DNA from: Desertivirga xinjiangensis
GTDB taxonomy: Bacteria; Bacteroidota; Bacteroidia; Sphingobacteriales; Sphingobacteriaceae
Length of the DNA: 64,000 bases
Reading direction: 5' to 3'
Assembly: GCF_024436435.1 (NCBI RefSeq)
Contig: NZ_JAFMZP010000003.1
Location: 248,001-312,000 of the forward strand
Shown: positions 15,555 to 59,362 of the stretch, piece by piece
Layout of the letters: every line of letters begins with the position of its first letter
How positions within the stretch are numbered: position 1 is the first letter of the stretch
Program-made: the position numbers and the translations under genes
The notes under the pieces: model-generated
What the model was told of the DNA's origin: nothing
What the model saw: the letters and a program-made list of their open reading frames with translations, nothing else
The model's database searches: none

Positions 15555-18500
15555 ATGGAACAGGTTATACTGGAGAGGGATGTAAAAAAAGCCCCTAAAC
15601 CTACGACTACGGACGATTCTCTTGACTTAAAGGAATTGTTAAACGTACTGTCACAAGTAAAAAATGGAAAGCTGGATGCACGTATGCCCGTGACACAAGC
15701 TGGTATTAATGGCAAGATCTGCGAGGTGCTGAACGAGATCATCGATATGAACGAGCAGTTTGTAAACGAGATCTGCACTGCAGAAAAAATAATAGGAAAA
15801 AAGGGGAATTTATCAAAGAGGGTAGAGCTCCCGGATGCCAGGGGTGGCTGGGCCATTGGCATAAAGTCATTGAACAATCTAATCACAGATTTAACTTTCC
15901 CTACGCTGGAAATTGCCGGGATGATTAATTCTGTTGCCAATGGTAACTTATCACGGCAAATACCCTTGGAAATAAACGGTCAACCATTAAAGGGCGAATT
16001 CTTACGCATAGCAAAAGAATCAAATCAAATGGTTGCTCAGTTAAGGCTTTTTACCATGGAGGTAACCCGCGTTGCCAGACAGGTGGGTTCGGAAGGAAAA
16101 CTGGGAGAGCAGGCTAAAATTAAAGGCGTTGCTGGTGTTTGGGAAGAACTTACCGATTCGGTAAACCAGATGGCTGGTAACCTTACAGCCCAGGTACGAA
16201 ATATTGCAACTGTAACTACTGCGGTGGCCAAGGGCGATCTTTCCCGGAAAATCACGGTTGAAGCCAAAGGAGAGATCCTTGAATTAAAAAACACCATTAA
16301 TACCATGGTGGATCAGCTTAACTCGTTCTCTTCGGAGGTAACCCGGGTGGCGCTTGAAGTAGGTACCGAGGGTAAACTTGGTGGACAAGCGAAGGTAACG
16401 GGGGTTGCCGGAACCTGGAAAGATCTAACTGACTCAGTAAACCGCATGGCAGGTAACTTAACCTCGCAGGTGCGGAACATTGCCGGTGTAACTACTGCCG
16501 TGGCCAATGGAGACCTTTCAAAGAAAATCACGGTTGACGTAAAAGGGGAAATGCTTGAATTGAAGAAGACCATCAACACCATGGTGGATCAGCTGAATTC
16601 ATTTGCATCTGAGGTAACCAGGGTGGCGCTTGAAGTAGGTACCGAGGGTAAACTTGGAGGACAGGCAAAGGTTAAGGGAGTCGGCGGGGTGTGGAAGGAT
16701 CTGACCGATTCGGTAAACCAGATGGGAAGTAATCTGACCGATCAGGTACGAAATATTGCCGACGTAACCACCGCTGTAGCAAAAGGCGATCTTTCACGAA
16801 AAATCACGGCAGATGCCAAGGGAGAACTCTTGCAGCTAAAAAACACCATCAACACCATGGTGGATCAGCTGAACTCATTCTCATCTGAGGTAACCCGGGT
16901 GGCCAGGGAAGTAGGTTCTGAAGGTCAGTTGGGGGGACAGGCAAATGTACCTGGTGTAGGCGGTACCTGGAAGGATTTGACAGACTCTGTAAATCAAATG
17001 GCGGGAAACCTGACAGGCCAGGTGCGAAATATTGCTGAAGTGACGACAGCCGTGGCTAAGGGTGACCTTTCCAAAAAGATCACGGTTGACGTAAAAGGGG
17101 AAATGCTGGAACTTAAGGTGACTATCAATACGATGGTGGATCAGCTGAACTCTTTTGGTTCAGAGGTAACGCGGGTGGCCCGGGAGGTAGGATCTGAAGG
17201 GCAGCTGGGTGGTCAGGCAAACGTGCCTGGCGTAGGTGGTACCTGGAAGGATTTAACCGATTCAGTAAATAAAATGGCCGACAACCTTACCTCTCAGGTA
17301 CGGAATATAGCAGAGGTAACTACTGCAGTTGCAAAAGGTGACCTTTCCCGGAAAATTACAGTAAATGCCAAAGGAGAGCTTTTGGAGCTGAAGGATACGA
17401 TCAATACGATGGTGGATCAGCTTAGAGGATTTGCTTCGGAGGTAACCAGGGTGGCCAGGGAAGTAGGATCTGAAGGACAGTTAGGCGGCCAGGCAAATGT
17501 TCCGGGGGTTGATGGAACCTGGAAAGACTTAACAGATAGTGTAAACAAAATGGCCGGTAATCTTACCGCCCAGTTGAGAAATATAGCAGATGTATCCATA
17601 GCGGTGGCTAATGGTGACTTATCTAAAAAGATCACTGTAGACGTTCGGGGAGAGATCCTTCAGCTTAAAGAAACTATTAATACGATGGTGGATCAGCTGA
17701 GGGGATTTGCTTCGGAAGTAACCCGGGTAGCTCGTGAGGTAGGTACCGACGGTAACTTAGGAGGACAAGCCTTTGTACCGGGCGTTGCCGGCACATGGAA
17801 GGACTTAACGGATTCAGTAAACCAGATGTCGTCAAACCTTACATCGCAGGTACGTAACATCGCAGAGGTAACGAAAGCGGTGGCAAGTGGTGACCTTTCG
17901 AAGACTGTGGTAATCGACGTAAAAGGGGAAATGATGGACCTGAAGAATACCATCAACACGATGGTGGATCAGTTAAACTCATTTGCGTCTGAAGTAACAC
18001 GTGTAGCCAGGGAGGTTGGTACTGAAGGTAAACTAGGGGGACAAGCACACGTAAAAGGTGTAGGCGGTACATGGAAGGATTTAACGGATTCGGTAAATCA
18101 GATGGCGTCCAACCTGACTGGTCAGATCCGGGGGATTTCGAAAGTAGCAACCGGAATTGCAAAGGGAAACCTGAAGCAGCGCTTATCGATCAATGCTCTT
18201 GGCGAGGTTGCGCAGCTAACGGATACAATTAATGAAATGATCGACACGCTGGCCGTGTTTGCAGACCAGGTAACGACGGTGGCCCGGGAGGTAGGTGTTC
18301 AGGGCCGCTTAGGCGGTCAGGCAAGTGTACCTGGTGCATCCGGAACCTGGAAAGACTTAACAGAAAACGTAAATCAGCTGGCTCAGAACTTGACGGTTCA
18401 GGTACGGTCAATTTCTGAAGTAGCATCGGCGGTAACCAAAGGGGATTTAACCCGGACCATACGGGTGGATGCCAAAGGAGAACTTGAGGCTTTGAAGGAC

Positions 18501-21254
18501 ACCATCAACCAGATGATTGCCAATCTTAAAGGTACTACCTTGAGGAACCATGAACAGGATTGGCTGAAATCCAACCTTGCGAAGTTTGCTCAAATGCTTC
18601 AGGGACAACGAGACAGGAACGCGGTTGCTAATAAGGTACTTTCAGAACTTGCGGAGCTTGTGAATGCACGTTACGGAGCCTTTTATATCCTGGAGCAGCC
18701 CGATGACGTTACAGAGGAGCCGAAATTGAAACTATTTGCCGGCTATGCGCAGAGCAGGCACAAGGTGATAAATTCTGAATTTACACTTAGCGAAGGTCTG
18801 GTTGGGCAGTGCGCTATTGATAAAGAGCGTATTTTGATAACCAATATTCCAGGGAATTATCTCCAGATCAACTCTGGAATCGGGGCAGCAACACCATCTG
18901 CACTGGTTATTCTGCCAGTACTATTCGAGAATAATACTAAGGCGGTAATTGAACTTGCCTCGTTTGATACATTCAGTCCTACACACCTCGACTTTTTAGA
19001 TCAGCTGACAGAAAGTATTGGTATCGTATTAAATAACATTGAAACAAATACCAGAACAGAGGAGCTTCTATCACAGTCGCAATCACTAGCCGGAGAATTA
19101 AAGGCTCAACAGGAAGAGTTGCGAAGAGCTAATGATGAGCTTCATGATAAGGCACAGCTGCTTGAAAAACAGAAAGAAGAAGTGGAGCAGATCAATAAAG
19201 AGGTCGAAGAAGCACGTCGATCTTTGGAAGAAAAGGCAGAACAGCTAACCCTTACCTCAAAATACAAATCGGAGTTCCTTGCAAACATGTCGCATGAGCT
19301 GCGTACTCCATTAAACAGCTTGCTTATCCTGGCTCAACAACTGTTTGAAAACCACGATGGAAACCTAAGCGAAAAACAGATAAGGTATGCAAGAACCATT
19401 CATTCATGTGGGTATGATCTTATCCAGTTGATTAATGACATCCTGGATCTTTCTAAGATTGAATCTGGAGTTATTTCTGCAGACATTATGCCTGTGAGCT
19501 TCAGAGAAATAGCTTCTTTCGTCGAAACCACGTTTAAACCAATATCCGAGGCTAAAAACCTTAATTTCGAAATCAACATCGAAGAAGAATTGCCTGAAAT
19601 AATGGAAACGGACATTCAGCGTTTGAATCAGATCTTGAAAAACCTTCTTTCCAATGCATTTAAATTCACTGAAAAAGGAAGCGTAAAACTCAGCATCAAG
19701 CGTCCGAACGGGGCACTTCGAAATCCTCTCAGCGGCTCTGATCATGTAATAGCCTTTTCGATTGAGGATACAGGTATAGGGATATCAAAGAAAACGCAGG
19801 GCATAATATTCGAGGCCTTCCAACAGGCAGAAGGATCAACCAGCAGAAAATACGGGGGTACAGGTTTAGGGCTTTCTATCAGTAAGGGTTTTGCCGAACT
19901 TCTCGGAGGAACAATTATTGTGGAAAGCGAACTCGGGAAAGGCAGTTCCTTCACTCTCTTCCTCCCGCTGAAGTATAAAGAAGGGACGAAACAAATAGGA
20001 GAATACTCTAGCGCCTACCCTGTAGCAAAACCTGCACCTGAAGTTAAGGAGTCAATAATTGAAGATGACAAGCACAACATTCACCCGGGCGATAAAGTTA
20101 TCCTGGTGATTGAGGACGACGTGCGCTTTACAAAAATCATGATTGACAAAGCACATGACTTTGGACTTAAAGCGGTTGTGGCTGTAAATTACATTGAAAT
20201 TTTTGATGTGATTCAAAGTTACAACCCGATAGCGATTACGCTTGATGTAAACCTGCCTGAATCAAATGGCTGGAAAATTCTGAAATTGTTGAAAAACGAT
20301 TATTCCTTGAGGCATATTCCGGTACATTTAATTTCAGGTGAAGATAACCGGGCACTGGCGCTTAAATACGGCGCCAAGAGCTTTCATTTAAAACCTCTTT
20401 CCAACAAATCTTTAGACGAACTAATATCCAGCGTTATCAATTACAATGATCGAAAGCTTAAAAAAGTGTTGATTGTTGAGGAAAACAAGAAGGACGCAGA
20501 AAACTTGATTTCGCTGTTGCAAACAGAAAGTATTCAAACCGCTATAGTCAATAATGCCAAGAAAGCCCTCTCCTTATTAAAAGAGGATGTTTTTGACTGT
20601 ATTGTCTTGGATTTCAGCAAACCTGAAGCCGAACTCATTGCCAACTATCTTAACGTAAATAAACAGTTCCAAACGTCAGTAATTATTTACTCTAAGGAAG
20701 AATTCAACCCGGATCAGCTGATCCATTTAAAACGACTGGATCATAAGTCTATTTCCAAAGCTGAGGAGTCGGAAATACTTGTCCTGAATGAAGTTTTAAG
20801 GATGTTACATATTGATTTAAAAGAACTTCCAGAAGTTAATGCAAAAGAAATCAATAAACTAAAAGACGGCACAGACATCCTGGATAATAAAAAAGTACTT
20901 GTTGTTGATGACGATGTGAGAAACCTTTTTGCACTAACTGCCGCATTTGAACGTTCTAACTTGGAAGTGATCACAGCAGAGAGCGGAAGGGAAGCACTGG
21001 AATTACTTAATGAAAACAAGGATATCGATATCGTATTAATGGATATTATGATGCCTGAAATGGACGGTTATGAGACTATTCAATGGATTAGAAAAGAACC
21101 CAAAAATAAGCAACTGCCTATTATTGCGGTAACAGCAAAAGCAATGATTGGAGACAGGCAAAAATGTATCGCTTCGGGAGCTTCGGATTATATAACAAAA
21201 CCGGTAAAAACCGATCAGCTTTTATCGCTGATGCGGGTTTGGCTATATCAATAA
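15555..21254 (+). CDS. Cytoplasmic poly-HAMP hybrid histidine kinase with GAF and three receiver domains
   Basis: Protein of 1,899 residues. Residues 1-168 are divergent HAMP-like helices. Residues 169-996 are nine tandem 92-residue HAMP repeats (each [10 protein letters not shown]...[10 protein letters not shown]...NTMVDQL). A GAF domain (about 1010-1165) and a coiled coil (about 1172-1240) follow. Then come HisKA with His1247 in [11 protein letters not shown], HATPase_c ([26 protein letters not shown]), and three receivers with phospho-acceptor Asp at about 1564, 1686 and 1830. The second receiver lacks the usual KP signature and may be degenerate. There is no signal peptide or membrane helix. 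The layout recalls fungal group III (Nik1/Os1) osmosensing kinases. It leads a four-gene phosphorelay island. Confidence 0.9.
16059..18542 (+). repeat. Nine tandem 276-bp repeats encoding HAMP units
   Basis: Nine in-frame 276-bp units (residues 169-996 of the hybrid kinase) run without interruption. Units 2-7 are the most alike. Units 8 and 9 diverge in their second halves ([17 protein letters not shown] and [14 protein letters not shown]). This much near-identity at DNA level makes copy-number change by recombination, and assembly error, likely. Confidence 0.92.
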
Positions 21255-24523: not shown

Positions 24524-24970
24524 ATGTACCCGATCTTGTTAGACATTCACTCCATCGTTCGTTTCGTAATCCTTCTTGCGATTGTTGTTTCCATTTTACT
24601 GGCATTTACAGGTTGGTTTGGCAAAAAGGAATATACCAAGGGCAACAAAGCCATAAATTTAATTACCCTGATATCTGCACATACTCAACTTGTTTTAGGT
24701 TTAATACTTTATTTTGTGAGTCCTTTTGCTTCCACTGGTAATATGGGCGCAGCTATGAAAGATCCCATTTTGCGCTACTGGACAGTTGAACACAGTGCAA
24801 TGATGATTGTTGCCATTGTCTTTATAACGATTGGGTATTCTAAATCTAAGAAGGCTCTGAGTTCCACTGAAAAACATCGTTTAATTGCTGTTTTTTATAC
24901 CATTGCTGCATTAATCGTAGTAGTTGCCATCAGTATGAGCGGACGTCCTCTCCTGGAGATGAGCAGATAA
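24524..24970 (+). CDS. Small four-helix membrane protein (cytochrome b-like family), function unknown
   Basis: Protein of 148 residues with four hydrophobic helices (about residues 10-30, 45-67, 85-107, 122-140). Conserved-looking His residues are in or next to helices (LLDIHSIVRF, ISAHTQLVLG, TVEHSAMMI), a spacing that could bind heme, and similar proteins are often labelled cytochrome B. It starts 48 bases after the response regulator and is followed by the trp leader region. No partner gene is evident. Heme binding is inference. Confidence 0.65.
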   Translation: MYPILLDIHSIVRFVILLAIVVSILLAFTGWFGKKEYTKGNKAINLITLISAHTQLVLGLILYFVSPFASTGNMGAAMKDPILRYWTVEHSAMMIVAIVFITIGYSKSKKALSSTEKHRLIAVFYTIAALIVVVAISMSGRPLLEMSR

Positions 24971-25018
24971 AATTTAAAAAATTTGCGATTGTAAAATTCT
25001 TTGCATTTTTTTGTACCA

Positions 25019-25078
25019 ATGTTAAAAGTGATACATACTAAAAACTGGTGGTGGCAAGCAATAGCTTGTGCCGGGTAA
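25019..25078 (+). CDS. trpL: trp operon leader peptide (19 residues, WWW)
   Basis: Short frame MLKVIHTKNWWWQAIACAG with three consecutive Trp codons (25046-25054) and a TAA stop at 25076-25078. It lies 71 bases before trpE and just upstream of a strong terminator. Three tandem Trp codons are very unlikely by chance, and the placement is exactly that of an attenuation leader that senses charged tRNA-Trp through ribosome stalling. Confidence 0.85.
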   Translation: MLKVIHTKNWWWQAIACAG

Positions 25079-25149
25079 AGTATGTTTAGTATTAAAATCG
25101 TAATCCGATCTAAATAGATATAACCCGACGCACTCCGTCGGGTTTTTTT
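25034..25149 (+). promoter_or_regulatory. trp transcription attenuator
   Basis: Three alternative structures can be drawn. A 1:2 hairpin joins GGCAAGC (25053-25059) with GCTTG..GCC (25064-25072). CGGGT (25072-25076), which overlaps the leader stop codon, can pair with ACCCG (25123-25127) in the left arm of the terminator, giving a candidate antiterminator. The terminator itself is at 25122-25149. ATACTAAA (25035-25042) also matches TTTAGTAT (25085-25092). A ribosome at the stop would cover CGGGT and allow termination; one stalled on the Trp codons would leave it free. The mechanism is inference from these pairings. Confidence 0.7.
25122..25149 (+). terminator. Attenuator terminator before trpE
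   Basis: Perfect 9-bp stem AACCCGACG (25122-25130) / CGTCGGGTT (25136-25144), loop CACTC, and seven T (25143-25149). The T-run directly touches the trpE ATG at 25150. Confidence 0.9.
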
Positions 25150-26592
25150 ATGTCAAAAAGAAATATAATGAAGAAATTTAACTTACACTCCTCTTATAAA
25201 AAATTACTTGCAGATACCACTACGCCGGTGAGTATTTATCTCCGCTTAAGGGATGTTTTCCCCAACAGCTTATTGCTTGAAAGCTCTGATTATCACAGCC
25301 GGGAAAACAGTATAAGTTATGTTTGCTGCGACCCTATTGCAGGAATAGTATTAGAGAACGACACATTCAGCACGTTCTATCCTGATGGATCAAAAGCGAT
25401 TTCAAGCTCATCTGATATGCACCAGCAGGTGACCGACTTTCGTAACAGCTTTCAATCCTCCCTTGAAGACAAGTTTAAATTTATCTCCAATGGACTGTTT
25501 GGTTATTTCGCCTATGAAACGATCGAACTCTTTGAAGATATCAAATTACAAACGGAACGGAATGGCGAACGGAACATTCCTTTATTACAATATCATGTTT
25601 ACAGATACGTAATAGCCATCGACCACTTCAAAAACGAACTTTACATTTTTGAACACAGGCCCAGCGAAGAAGAAACTTCCGGCCTTGAACGTATACAGTT
25701 CCTTATTCAAAATAAAAACTTTCCGGAATATCCATTTGAAACCACCGGAGAAGAAACATCTAACTTTACCGACGAAGAGTTTATAGATGTTGTCGAAAAA
25801 TTGAAGCTCCATATTTACCGGGGGGATGTTTTCCAGATAGTTCCTTCGAGGGCTTTTTCGAAACCATTTTTAGGTGATGAATTTAACGTATACAGGGCTC
25901 TGCGATCGATCAACCCCTCTCCGTACCTGTTCTATTTCGATTATGGCAACTTCAAGATATTCGGATCGTCGCCCGAAGCGCAGCTAACCATAAAAAATGG
26001 TGAAGCGACCATATATCCAATTGCCGGTACATTCAGAAGGACAGGTAACGATGTTCTGGATGCTGAACTGGCAGCCAAACTAGAAAATGACCCAAAAGAA
26101 AGTGCCGAACATGTTATGCTGGTTGACCTGGCTCGCAACGACCTAAGCAGGCATTGTGATGAAGTGCAGGTAAAAGCTTTCAAAGAGGTGCAATACTATT
26201 CTCATCTCATACACCTCGTTTCAAAGGTGACGGGTAAGCTGCAGAAAAATGCCCATCCGTTTTATGTGGTTGGTGATACATTTCCTGCAGGAACACTTAG
26301 CGGAGCTCCTAAATACATGGCTATGACCCTTATTGATAAATATGAAAAAGGTCAGAGAGGATTCTATAGCGGAGCAATTGGCTACATGGGATTTAACGGC
26401 GATTTCAATCATGCCATTATGATCCGCTCTTTTATGAGCCGCAATAACGTATTACACTACCAGGCGGGTGCCGGCATAGTGGCCGATTCCGATCCTCAAA
26501 GTGAATTAAACGAAGTTAATAATAAAATCGCTGCATTACGGAATGCCCTTGAGATGGCAGGCAGCATTGTCCCACAAGTTGAAAAGATATAA
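25150..26592 (+). CDS. trpE: Anthranilate synthase component I
   Basis: Protein of 480 residues that converts chorismate and ammonia to anthranilate. The N-terminal part carries an LLESSDYHSRENS-type segment corresponding to the Trp feedback site. The chorismate-binding domain has VFQIVPSRAFSKPF, GSSPEAQL, IAGTFRRTG, HVMLVDLARNDLSR, FPAGTLSGAPK and the C-terminal AGAGIVADSDPQSE. All are standard. Two starts are possible: ATG at 25150, which abuts the terminator T-run, or ATG at 25168 (MKKFNLHSSY), which follows an A-rich stretch. The latter is better placed for translation. trpG follows after 1 base. Confidence 0.95.
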   Translation: MSKRNIMKKFNLHSSYKKLLADTTTPVSIYLRLRDVFPNSLLLESSDYHSRENSISYVCCDPIAGIVLENDTFSTFYPDGSKAISSSSDMHQQVTDFRNSFQSSLEDKFKFISNGLFGYFAYETIELFEDIKLQTERNGERNIPLLQYHVYRYVIAIDHFKNELYIFEHRPSEEETSGLERIQFLIQNKNFPEYPFETTGEETSNFTDEEFIDVVEKLKLHIYRGDVFQIVPSRAFSKPFLGDEFNVYRALRSINPSPYLFYFDYGNFKIFGSSPEAQLTIKNGEATIYPIAGTFRRTGNDVLDAELAAKLENDPKESAEHVMLVDLARNDLSRHCDEVQVKAFKEVQYYSHLIHLVSKVTGKLQKNAHPFYVVGDTFPAGTLSGAPKYMAMTLIDKYEKGQRGFYSGAIGYMGFNGDFNHAIMIRSFMSRNNVLHYQAGAGIVADSDPQSELNEVNNKIAALRNALEMAGSIVPQVEKI

Positions 26593-26593
26593 G

Positions 26594-27178
26594 ATGAAGA
26601 TATTAGTTGTTGATAATTACGATTCGTTTACATTTAACCTTGTTCACCTTTTACATGAATGCGGGTTCGAACCTACGGTTTGGAGGAATGATAAATTCGA
26701 GATCTCAGATGTTGAGCAGTTTGATAAGATCCTTTTATCGCCTGGACCAGGTATCCCCTCTGAAGCAGGTTTATTATTAGATGTGATTAAGACTTACGCT
26801 CCTTCAAAAAGTATTTTGGGGGTTTGTTTAGGCATGCAGGCAATGGCCGAGGTTTTTGGGGGCAATCTTTATAATCTTTCATATCCGGTACATGGCAGAG
26901 CCACAGCGATGCAGGTCCTGGACGATTCTGAAAAGCTATTTAATATGCTGCCACAAACATTTAATGTTGGCCGTTATCATTCCTGGGCAGTAAGCCGGGA
27001 AGGCTTGCCTGATGATGTTAAAATTACCGCTAAAGACACCGAAGGAGTGATCATGGCGCTTCGCCACCTGCACTACGATGTTAGGGGCGTTCAATTTCAT
27101 CCGGAATCAGTTCTTACAGAACACGGAAAACAAATGATAAAAAACTGGCTGACAGCACCCGCCTCGGAAGAGGCATAA
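26594..27178 (+). CDS. trpG: Anthranilate synthase component II (glutamine amidotransferase)
   Basis: Class I glutamine amidotransferase of 194 residues that supplies ammonia to TrpE. The triad is visible: the nucleophile Cys in GVCLGMQAMAE, and His and Glu in VQFHPESVLTEHG. The start LVVDNYDSFTFNLVH and LLSPGPGIPSE are typical of TrpG/PabA. The ATG at 26594 gives the normal family N-terminus. The open frame upstream to 26543 lies inside trpE and is not used. It lies 1 base after trpE and 9 bases before trpC. With trpE and trpC here, TrpG is the likelier identity, although dual TrpG/PabA use is possible. Confidence 0.93.
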   Translation: MKILVVDNYDSFTFNLVHLLHECGFEPTVWRNDKFEISDVEQFDKILLSPGPGIPSEAGLLLDVIKTYAPSKSILGVCLGMQAMAEVFGGNLYNLSYPVHGRATAMQVLDDSEKLFNMLPQTFNVGRYHSWAVSREGLPDDVKITAKDTEGVIMALRHLHYDVRGVQFHPESVLTEHGKQMIKNWLTAPASEEA

Positions 27179-27187
27179 AGGATAAAA

Positions 27188-28009
27188 ATGACACAGAAAC
27201 GCAGTGTAATTAAAGGAGAAGGATCTACTATTCTGGACAAGATAGTGATCCGGAAACGAAAAGAAGTTGAACTTGCACGCTCCAGAACATCTATTATACA
27301 ATTGGAAGAGGGAGAGCTGTTCCACAGGGAGTGCTACTCGATGCGTGATTTTATTCTTTCTCCGGACAGAACAGGGATCATAGCCGAATTCAAACGGGCA
27401 TCCCCATCGAAGGGTATAATTAACGATAAGGTCTTTGTACAGGATATTACACAAGCCTACGGAAACGCAGGAGCATCTGCACTTTCGATACTTACTGATC
27501 CATCTTTTTTTGGAGGCAGTGTAAACGATGTACTGCAGGCCCGCCAGGTGAATCAAATTCCGATTTTGAGGAAAGAGTTTATTCTCGATGAATACCAGAT
27601 TATTGAAGCCAAGGCAATTGGTGCAGATATCATTCTTCTAATTGCCGCCATTTTAACAGCCGAACAGATCCGGACCTTTGCAAAACTTGCAAAAGACCTG
27701 GGATTAAGTGTATTGATGGAAGTACATGACCAGCGCGAACTTGAAGATTGTTTATGCACTGAATTAGATGCAGTTGGCGTGAACAACCGCAACCTGGCAG
27801 ATTTTTCTGTTTCTCTACAGCATTCCTACGATCTGGCCGATCAAATTCCTGATCAGTTTCTAAAGATTTCAGAGAGCGGAATTAGTAGTCCGGCTACTAT
27901 CAAAGACTTGAAACTTGCGGGATTCAATGGGTTTTTGATAGGTGAAAACTTCATGAAGGAAGAAGATCCAGGAAAAGCCATAAAGGAGTTTACGGACCAG
28001 CTAAGATAA
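27188..28009 (+). CDS. trpC: Indole-3-glycerol phosphate synthase
   Basis: TIM-barrel enzyme of 273 residues that closes the indole ring of CdRP. Motifs: GIIAEFKRASPSKG with catalytic Lys, ALSILTDPSFFGGS, ILRKEFILDEYQI, GADIILLIAAIL, VGVNNRNLADF, and ISESGISSPATI followed by GFLIGENFM. It lies 9 bases after trpG. In most Bacteroidota trpD sits between trpG and trpC and trpF, trpB and trpA follow. None is here, so the operon is shortened and the other genes must be elsewhere or absent. A large palindrome follows the stop after 13 bases. Confidence 0.95.
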   Translation: MTQKRSVIKGEGSTILDKIVIRKRKEVELARSRTSIIQLEEGELFHRECYSMRDFILSPDRTGIIAEFKRASPSKGIINDKVFVQDITQAYGNAGASALSILTDPSFFGGSVNDVLQARQVNQIPILRKEFILDEYQIIEAKAIGADIILLIAAILTAEQIRTFAKLAKDLGLSVLMEVHDQRELEDCLCTELDAVGVNNRNLADFSVSLQHSYDLADQIPDQFLKISESGISSPATIKDLKLAGFNGFLIGENFMKEEDPGKAIKEFTDQLR

Positions 28010-59290: not shown

Positions 59291-59362
59291 GGCCCTGTAG
59301 TTCAACGGATAGAATAGGCGTTTCCTAAACTCTAGATGTGGGTTCGATTCCCGCCGGGGCTA
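59291..59362 (+). tRNA. tRNA-Arg (anticodon CCT)
   Basis: Full 72-base cloverleaf without encoded CCA: acceptor 59291-59297 / 59355-59361, D arm 59300-59315, anticodon stem-loop 59317-59333 with CCT at 59324-59326, variable loop AGAT, T arm 59338-59354 with TTCGATT, and discriminator A59362. The anticodon stem has a C-T mismatch at its middle pair (59319/59331) and a G-T closing pair. A terminator follows. Confidence 0.93.

Follow-up and report, generated by a model that had tools for sequence, protein, structure and literature searches.

The trpEGC operon of Desertivirga xinjiangensis (Sphingobacteriaceae) is very probably controlled by a classical four-region, ribosome-mediated transcription attenuator, as judged from sequence comparison and modelled folding. 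Trp attenuation of this kind is textbook knowledge, and its characteristic parts are found upstream of trpE: a short ORF with tandem Trp codons and an intrinsic terminator (a Trp-containing short ORF plus terminator is present in 100 of 101 family loci), and, by comparison and folding, an antiterminator that is freed by ribosome stalling and a protector helix between regions 1 and 2, the latter weak in the model of the locus described here. This locus lies at positions 25019-25149 of the window, by which we mean the whole 64,000-nt stretch of DNA that was analysed; the operon and its leader are on the plus strand throughout. A first-pass annotation had proposed classical attenuation, and the comparison strongly supports that logic, all four of these parts being recovered.

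The leader peptide ORF, MLKVIHTKNWWWQAIACAG (19 aa), runs from the ATG at 25019 to the TAA at 25076-25078 and is recognised from its sequence and from related leaders; codons 10-12 (25046-25054) form a WWW run. The intrinsic terminator (25124-25149), likewise identified from sequence and relatives, is a perfect 7-bp hairpin with CCCGACG (25124-25130) and CGTCGGG (25136-25142) flanking a CACTC loop (25131-25135), followed by seven Ts (25143-25149). CGGGT (25072-25076), whose final T opens the stop codon, is the reverse complement of ACCCG (25123-25127). The 19-residue leader with three tandem Trp codons, the perfect terminator with its T-run and the CGGGT/ACCCG complementarity had all been claimed at first pass, and all are in the sequence. 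RNA folding had been proposed as a check: RNA from 25019 to 25160 folds at -39.8 kcal/mol (z = -4.16), which none of 200 dinucleotide shuffles equalled.

Region 1 (25033-25049), placed by the minimum-energy fold and by the cognate-versus-permuted test described below, consists of ACAUACU (25033-25039) and of CUGGU (25045-25049), which spans the first Trp codon, and pairs with region 2. Region 2 (25068-25089), placed by folds and pairing tests, consists of GUGCCGGGU (25068-25076), AGUAUGU (25079-25085) and UGUUUAG (25083-25089), and has two alternative partners, region 1 in the protector and region 3 in the antiterminator. Region 3 (25110-25133), with CUAAAUA (25110-25116), ACCCG (25123-25127) and GCAC (25130-25133), includes the 5′ arm of the terminator. 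It was placed by the fold with a stalled ribosome covering the Trp codons, in which the antiterminator comprises GUGC/GCAC, CGGGU/ACCCG and UGUUUAG/CUAAAUA and reaches -17.9 kcal/mol. The earlier parts list was right as to CGGGU/ACCCG, but had overlooked the protector helix between regions 1 and 2, the full length of the antiterminator and a predicted promoter lying against the leader ATG.

Downstream of the terminator are trpE, encoding anthranilate synthase component I (25168-26592; Pfam PF04715 and PF00425), trpG, encoding the glutamine amidotransferase subunit (26594-27178; PF00117 on 26597-27175), and trpC, encoding indole-3-glycerol phosphate synthase (27188-28009; PF00218). The T-run abuts an ATG at 25150, which had been read as trpE touching the T-run with no spacing. 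Although the abutting ATG is real, trpE most likely starts at the ATG at 25168, 18 nt past the T-run, because the closest relative (L002; TrpE 85% identical) has an in-frame stop 12 nt 5′ of the ATG that aligns with 25168, and because, of the 22 ATGs that abut the T-run among 100 leaders, just nine share the trpE frame, approximately the chance level. We therefore rejected 25150 as the start, and with it the one part of the original observation, zero spacing to trpE, that did not hold alongside the leader, the terminator and CGGGT/ACCCG. The TrpE query began at the chosen 25168, so that the starts of the matches are themselves no evidence for the start; elsewhere in the family, 9-141 nt separate the terminator stem from the TrpE match. 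The named genomes with the most similar TrpE are those of Pedobacter sp. SYSU D00535 (84% identity), Desertivirga arenae (82%) and Paradesertivirga mongoliensis (80%). Elsewhere in the window, at 15555-21254, we noted a 1899-aa ORF that resembles a hybrid kinase and carries an extended series of almost identical repeats, with more regulator-like and kinase-like ORFs as its neighbours (all named by eye).

To set the leader against its relatives we used 110 trpE loci, 30 from 60 genomes (59 with a match) and 80 more, reduced to 101 by dropping duplicates that shared the initial 300 nt of the trpE match; some same-genome pairs with differing match starts were kept (e.g. L014/L055 and L017/L067). 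A Trp-containing short ORF followed by a terminator precedes trpE in 100 of these 101 loci, with the 5′ arm of the terminator beginning 60-83 nt past the last Trp codon; the sole exception lacking the pair upstream of trpE is L099 (Pedobacter sp. KBW06). Under a stricter rule, an ORF of 10-35 codons within 300 nt of trpE that contains WW or WxW was found in 95 of 101 upstreams, as compared to a mean of 2.05 and a maximum of 5 in shuffles, and a WWW ORF in 45, as compared to none in shuffles. Among 39 control upstreams of hisG and ilvD, there was one ORF with WW or WxW and none with WWW. The WWW frame, whose conservation had been put forward as a test, is present in just under half of these loci and its relaxed form in nearly all of them. 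Beyond the family, 30 of 39 class-level loci (two of them, L162 and L168, with unclear coordinates) have a WW or WxW ORF, with differing terminators; in one (L121), the leader is followed by GAACAGCA, opposite which stands UGCUGUUC at the terminator. For the pairing, folding and promoter analyses, the 100 leaders with a terminator were dereplicated by shared 8-mers to a set of 60.

Immediately upstream of the leader ATG we found a predicted sigma-ABfr-type promoter, in which a -33 element TTTG (24982-24985) is separated by a 20-nt spacer from a -7 element, TTTTTTTG (25006-25013), that carries five of the six fixed bases of TAnnTTTG and is without the A. Sites of the form TTTG-N17-20-TAnnTTTG scoring at least 8 of 10 fixed bases are present in 59 of the 60 leaders, 40 of which score 10; the spacer is 18 nt in 39 of the 59, and the end of the promoter lies 4-9 nt from the leader start codon in 58 and 10 nt from it in one. 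In the remaining leader (L009), by eye, a promoter would fit with a GTG start. The published spacing rule (PMC6847099 and PMC9723704) places the start site 4 or 5 nt from the -7 element, with G at -5. Together, promoter position and spacing rule predict a transcript start at 25018 or 25019 in the window, with a 5′ UTR of 0-1 nt, and 5′ UTRs of approximately 0-6 nt in the family. Such short 5′ UTRs are uncommon elsewhere in the phylum: approximately 3.7% of 5′ UTRs are under 10 nt in Bacteroides thetaiotaomicron (PMC7366714), 5.5% of mRNAs are leaderless in Flavobacterium psychrophilum (PMC9723704) and 87% of 5′ UTRs are longer than 10 nt in F. johnsoniae.

If the element next to the ATG were idle and transcription began further upstream, the locus would be a real Trp attenuator with an ordinary leader. 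We consider this unlikely. Promoter-like elements are common in AT-rich DNA, and among shuffled upstreams a mean of 28.8 of 60 scored 8 or more; however, 27% of those shuffled sites fell within 3-9 nt of the start, as compared to 58 of 59 real ones at 4-9 nt. The missing A in the window and the looser spacing outside the family speak for an idle element: among the 30 class-level leaders (counted by eye on the top-scoring ORF of each WW or WxW locus), a -7 element that keeps 5 or 6 of 6 fixed bases lies at ≤14 nt in 21 but not in the other nine. Against it, the exact pattern TTTGN17-20TAnnTTTGN3-9ATG is rare in the genome, with 24 matches, near the control rate of 15 for the reversed pattern, indicating that placing a promoter against an ATG is no general habit of this genome; the window leader is itself outside the 24 because its -7 element is without the A. 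Further evidence comes from the his operon. Counted by eye, eight of 17 family hisG loci have 29-38 nt between the full -7 element and the His leader (32 nt in the window genome), so that the leader peptides of the family are not all at the RNA 5′ end. In one further locus (L203) the full element lies at 13 nt, and the other eight lack either a His ORF or a full element close to the picked ORF.

We assessed the proposed pairings by comparing each region 2 with its own and with permuted partners. For the 2:3 duplex, the mean energy across the 60 leaders was -10.3 kcal/mol with the leader's own partner, -9.0 with permuted partners and -6.1 with shuffled region 2; for the 1:2 duplex, the corresponding values were -16.2, -13.0 and -10.8 kcal/mol. 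In neither case did any of 5000 permutations do as well, which answers favourably the covariation check suggested at first pass, with the reservation that the permutation test leaves residual relatedness among the 60 leaders. Compensatory cases point the same way. Terminators with GCUUGUCGC (L028 and L029) are accompanied by GCGACAAGGC or GCGACCUGGC in region 2, the former in L028, and a CCCGAUG arm is matched by CAUCGGG in seven leaders, two of them within the set of 60; among the leaders listed, six with this match are from Sphingobacterium. Tabulated as A/G against U/C for the 52 of 60 leaders that hold the core, with 6 others left out, the terminator-antiterminator pairs were A-U 19, A-C 13, G-U 1 and G-C 13 (Fisher p = 0.001). 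The plain CC.G/CGG core pair is absent from 21 of 100 leaders (8 of the 60) and mismatches occur, including C against A in the window. In many family leaders a AAUCAACC-type motif recurs between the leader stop and the terminator, and in several duplexes of the 1:2 test it pairs with the first bases of the leader; the RNA 5′ end may take part in the fold in this way.

When the last Trp codon occupies the A site, the ribosome should cover approximately 10 nt beyond that codon, and we used this footprint as a mask. Across the 60 leaders, the first paired base of the antiterminator lies 11-23 nt from the last Trp codon (median 17, sd 2.8); in the window, region 2 begins at 25068, 13 nt past it. 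Given the footprint, this spacing means that the antiterminator should begin right where the RNA emerges from a Trp-stalled ribosome. The leader stop is far less constrained, at 12-48 nt from the last Trp codon (sd 10.4). It overlaps the antiterminator in five of the 60 leaders; in 49 it comes after the antiterminator and in six before it. The masking of the antiterminator by a ribosome at the stop codon had been singled out as distinctive; with overlap in 5 of 60 we reject it as a conserved rule and regard it as a local detail. The constant spacing fits Trp stalling as the signal, and the conserved quantity is the start of the antiterminator just outside the Trp-stalled ribosome rather than the position of the leader stop.

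We then folded the RNA of all 60 leaders as made up to the terminator loop, before the 3′ arm, with the ribosome as a mask. The mean pairing probability of the terminator 5′ arm was 0.69 with a stalled ribosome, 0.44 with a ribosome at the stop codon and 0.47 with no ribosome. The stalled value exceeded the stop value in 55 leaders and the ribosome-free value in 52, by more than 0.2 in 33 and 28, respectively, and a difference of more than 0.2 in the opposite direction was never seen. With shuffled region 2, the stalled value fell to 0.43 and the difference was gone. In the window the values were 0.72 (stalled), 0.63 (no ribosome) and 0.20 (stop); since the ribosome-free value is close to the stalled one, the protector helix of the window is weak by this measure. 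In late-stop clades, a modelled ribosome parked at the stop fails to free the terminator arm, and the antiterminator stays free; in L064, for example, where the stop is 45 nt past the Trp codons, the value was 0.89 with the ribosome at the stop and 0.77 with it stalled on the last Trp codon. In such leaders, masking of the region presumably occurs in passage.

The tandem Trp codons and an antiterminator just past the stalled ribosome also make it highly improbable that tryptophan is sensed by a protein or a tRNA (TRAP, a T-box or a repressor) rather than through translation of a leader peptide. Consistent with this, a search of the whole 64-kb window with Rfam gave a tRNA at 59291 as its sole match at gathering score, and no T-box; between 24900 and 25300 there were 22 matches up to E = 10, all under their gathering scores. 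That the hairpin merely ends the upstream gene (24524-24970), which is on the same strand and ends approximately 150 nt before it, with the WWW ORF arising by chance, is scarcely credible and already contradicted by conservation, given that Trp ORF and terminator are similarly spaced in 100 of 101 trpE upstreams, that the stricter rule finds 95 where 2 are expected, that regions 1 and 2 are complementary, and that a promoter-like site lies between the upstream gene and the leader.

The comparison supports the parts of the attenuator, their pairings and their spacing, and from these we infer the transcript start, the ribosome movements and the response to tryptophan, as follows. From the position of the promoter, RNA polymerase would begin transcription at the leader AUG itself or about one base from it at most, and a ribosome would load on the 5′-terminal AUG once it is exposed. 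When Trp-tRNA is scarce, the ribosome would stall on the Trp codons and cover region 1; region 2, left free, would pair with region 3 and remove the 5′ arm from the terminator, such that trpEGC is transcribed. When Trp-tRNA is plentiful, the ribosome would move on and cover region 2, and the terminator would form. Without a translating ribosome, region 1 could pair with region 2, which would likewise favour the terminator.

The rest of the pathway is encoded in a separate operon, with trpD and trpA identified by Pfam and the genes between them named trpF and trpB from their sequence. In the same genome, trpD is preceded by a Trp leader, MILKTVNTAKWWHFD, with a 1:2 helix of its own and a GGUUGC/GCAACC terminator; from sequence, the trpDFBA leader is placed at approximately 2610 down to 2485 on the minus strand of L251, in L253, and near 178.8 kb of G000:C24. 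Among 30 trpD loci of relatives, a Trp ORF was found by rule in 22 and none in five, while three had unclear orientation; three ORFs (L275, L281 and L282) were judged to be chance, and 19 leaders were kept. In these 19 the spacing is similarly short, with 5-14 nt between the end of the -7 element (5/6 fixed bases) and the start codon, and 10-13 nt in 15 of them. The cognate test was positive for the 1:2 pairing (0 of 5000 permutations as good) but negative for 2:3 (z = -0.4, 1683 of 5000 as good), even though 2:3 pairing beats shuffles (-9.05 as compared to -5.95). We put this failure down to the terminators being nearly alike. In the 18 genomes that carry both operons, the arm of its own operon was the better partner for region 2 in 13 cases for trpE and 16 for trpD.

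Leaders for other amino acids were also seen. His-rich leaders precede hisG (L204 and others among L186-L207), e.g. MTSVFTHHMHFHHRH; many of them are followed by a conserved TATGTTTCTACGTG-like stretch with no obvious GC-rich terminator, and these possibly use another mechanism. Of 19 ilvD loci, five were viewed and one leader was read by eye: in L242, approximately 330-220 nt upstream of the ilvD match, an ORF rich in branched-chain residues, MNPRLRRRLSITVTSLVPVINVIVVLLIASHSKVS (translated by eye), precedes GCGCCTTC..GGAGGCGC, with a T-run between these and ilvD.

Escherichia coli trpL has a tandem-Trp leader peptide and four regions that form protector, antiterminator and terminator, and the present locus resembles it in all of these. 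In the present locus, unlike E. coli trpL, region 1 lies for the most part 5′ of the Trp codons and a nearly leaderless mRNA is predicted; by Rfam, the locus scores 17.2 bits with RF00513 (Trp_leader), under the gathering threshold of 41. Leaderless short-ORF attenuators with poly-Cys runs have reportedly been described in mycobacteria by Canestrari et al. 2020; going by the title, these share with our leaders the short ORF, predicted here to be leaderless, and the run of codons for the sensed residue, but concern cysteine and mycobacteria. Among the papers listed by literature searches, which covered few subscription journals, we recognised no description of a Bacteroidota Trp leader or of a leaderless leader peptide in that phylum. 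Lopatovskaya et al. 2010 may already have predicted attenuators in Bacteroidota. In Sinorhizobium meliloti, according to PMC7298713, the 5′ end of the trpL/rnTrpL RNA is the ATG of trpL, before trpE(G). That system is like ours in having a Trp leader peptide before trpE, with the start here only predicted, but S. meliloti belongs to the Alphaproteobacteria, and we infer that the two arrangements are of independent origin. Within the phylum, attenuation by leader peptides has been proposed for amino-acid operons of F. psychrophilum (PMC9723704), in a main text from which the word tryptophan is absent, and for sORFs of B. thetaiotaomicron (PMC7366714).

We conclude that the switch itself is of an ordinary kind and that its predicted start is what makes it interesting, a reading we regard as sound. 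As a Trp attenuator from the Bacteroidota, the locus is broadly backed by comparison and has exactly defined parts. Bacteroidota ribosomes ignore Shine-Dalgarno sequences, and mRNAs in the phylum mostly have leaders. On balance, the sequences favour a picture in which Sphingobacteriaceae, and probably other Bacteroidia families, make Trp leader peptides from leaderless or nearly leaderless mRNAs that start at the AUG or within a few bases of it, in which two attenuators (trpEGC and trpDFBA) keep the split pathway in step, and in which his leaders, in several of these genomes, retain a normal 5′ UTR. If initiation does occur at a 5′-terminal AUG, the first ribosome would follow close behind RNA polymerase and would need no ribosome-binding site. 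These leaders would then lend themselves to the study of transcription-translation coupling and of 5′-AUG initiation without Shine-Dalgarno sequences, with the leadered his leaders as an internal contrast.
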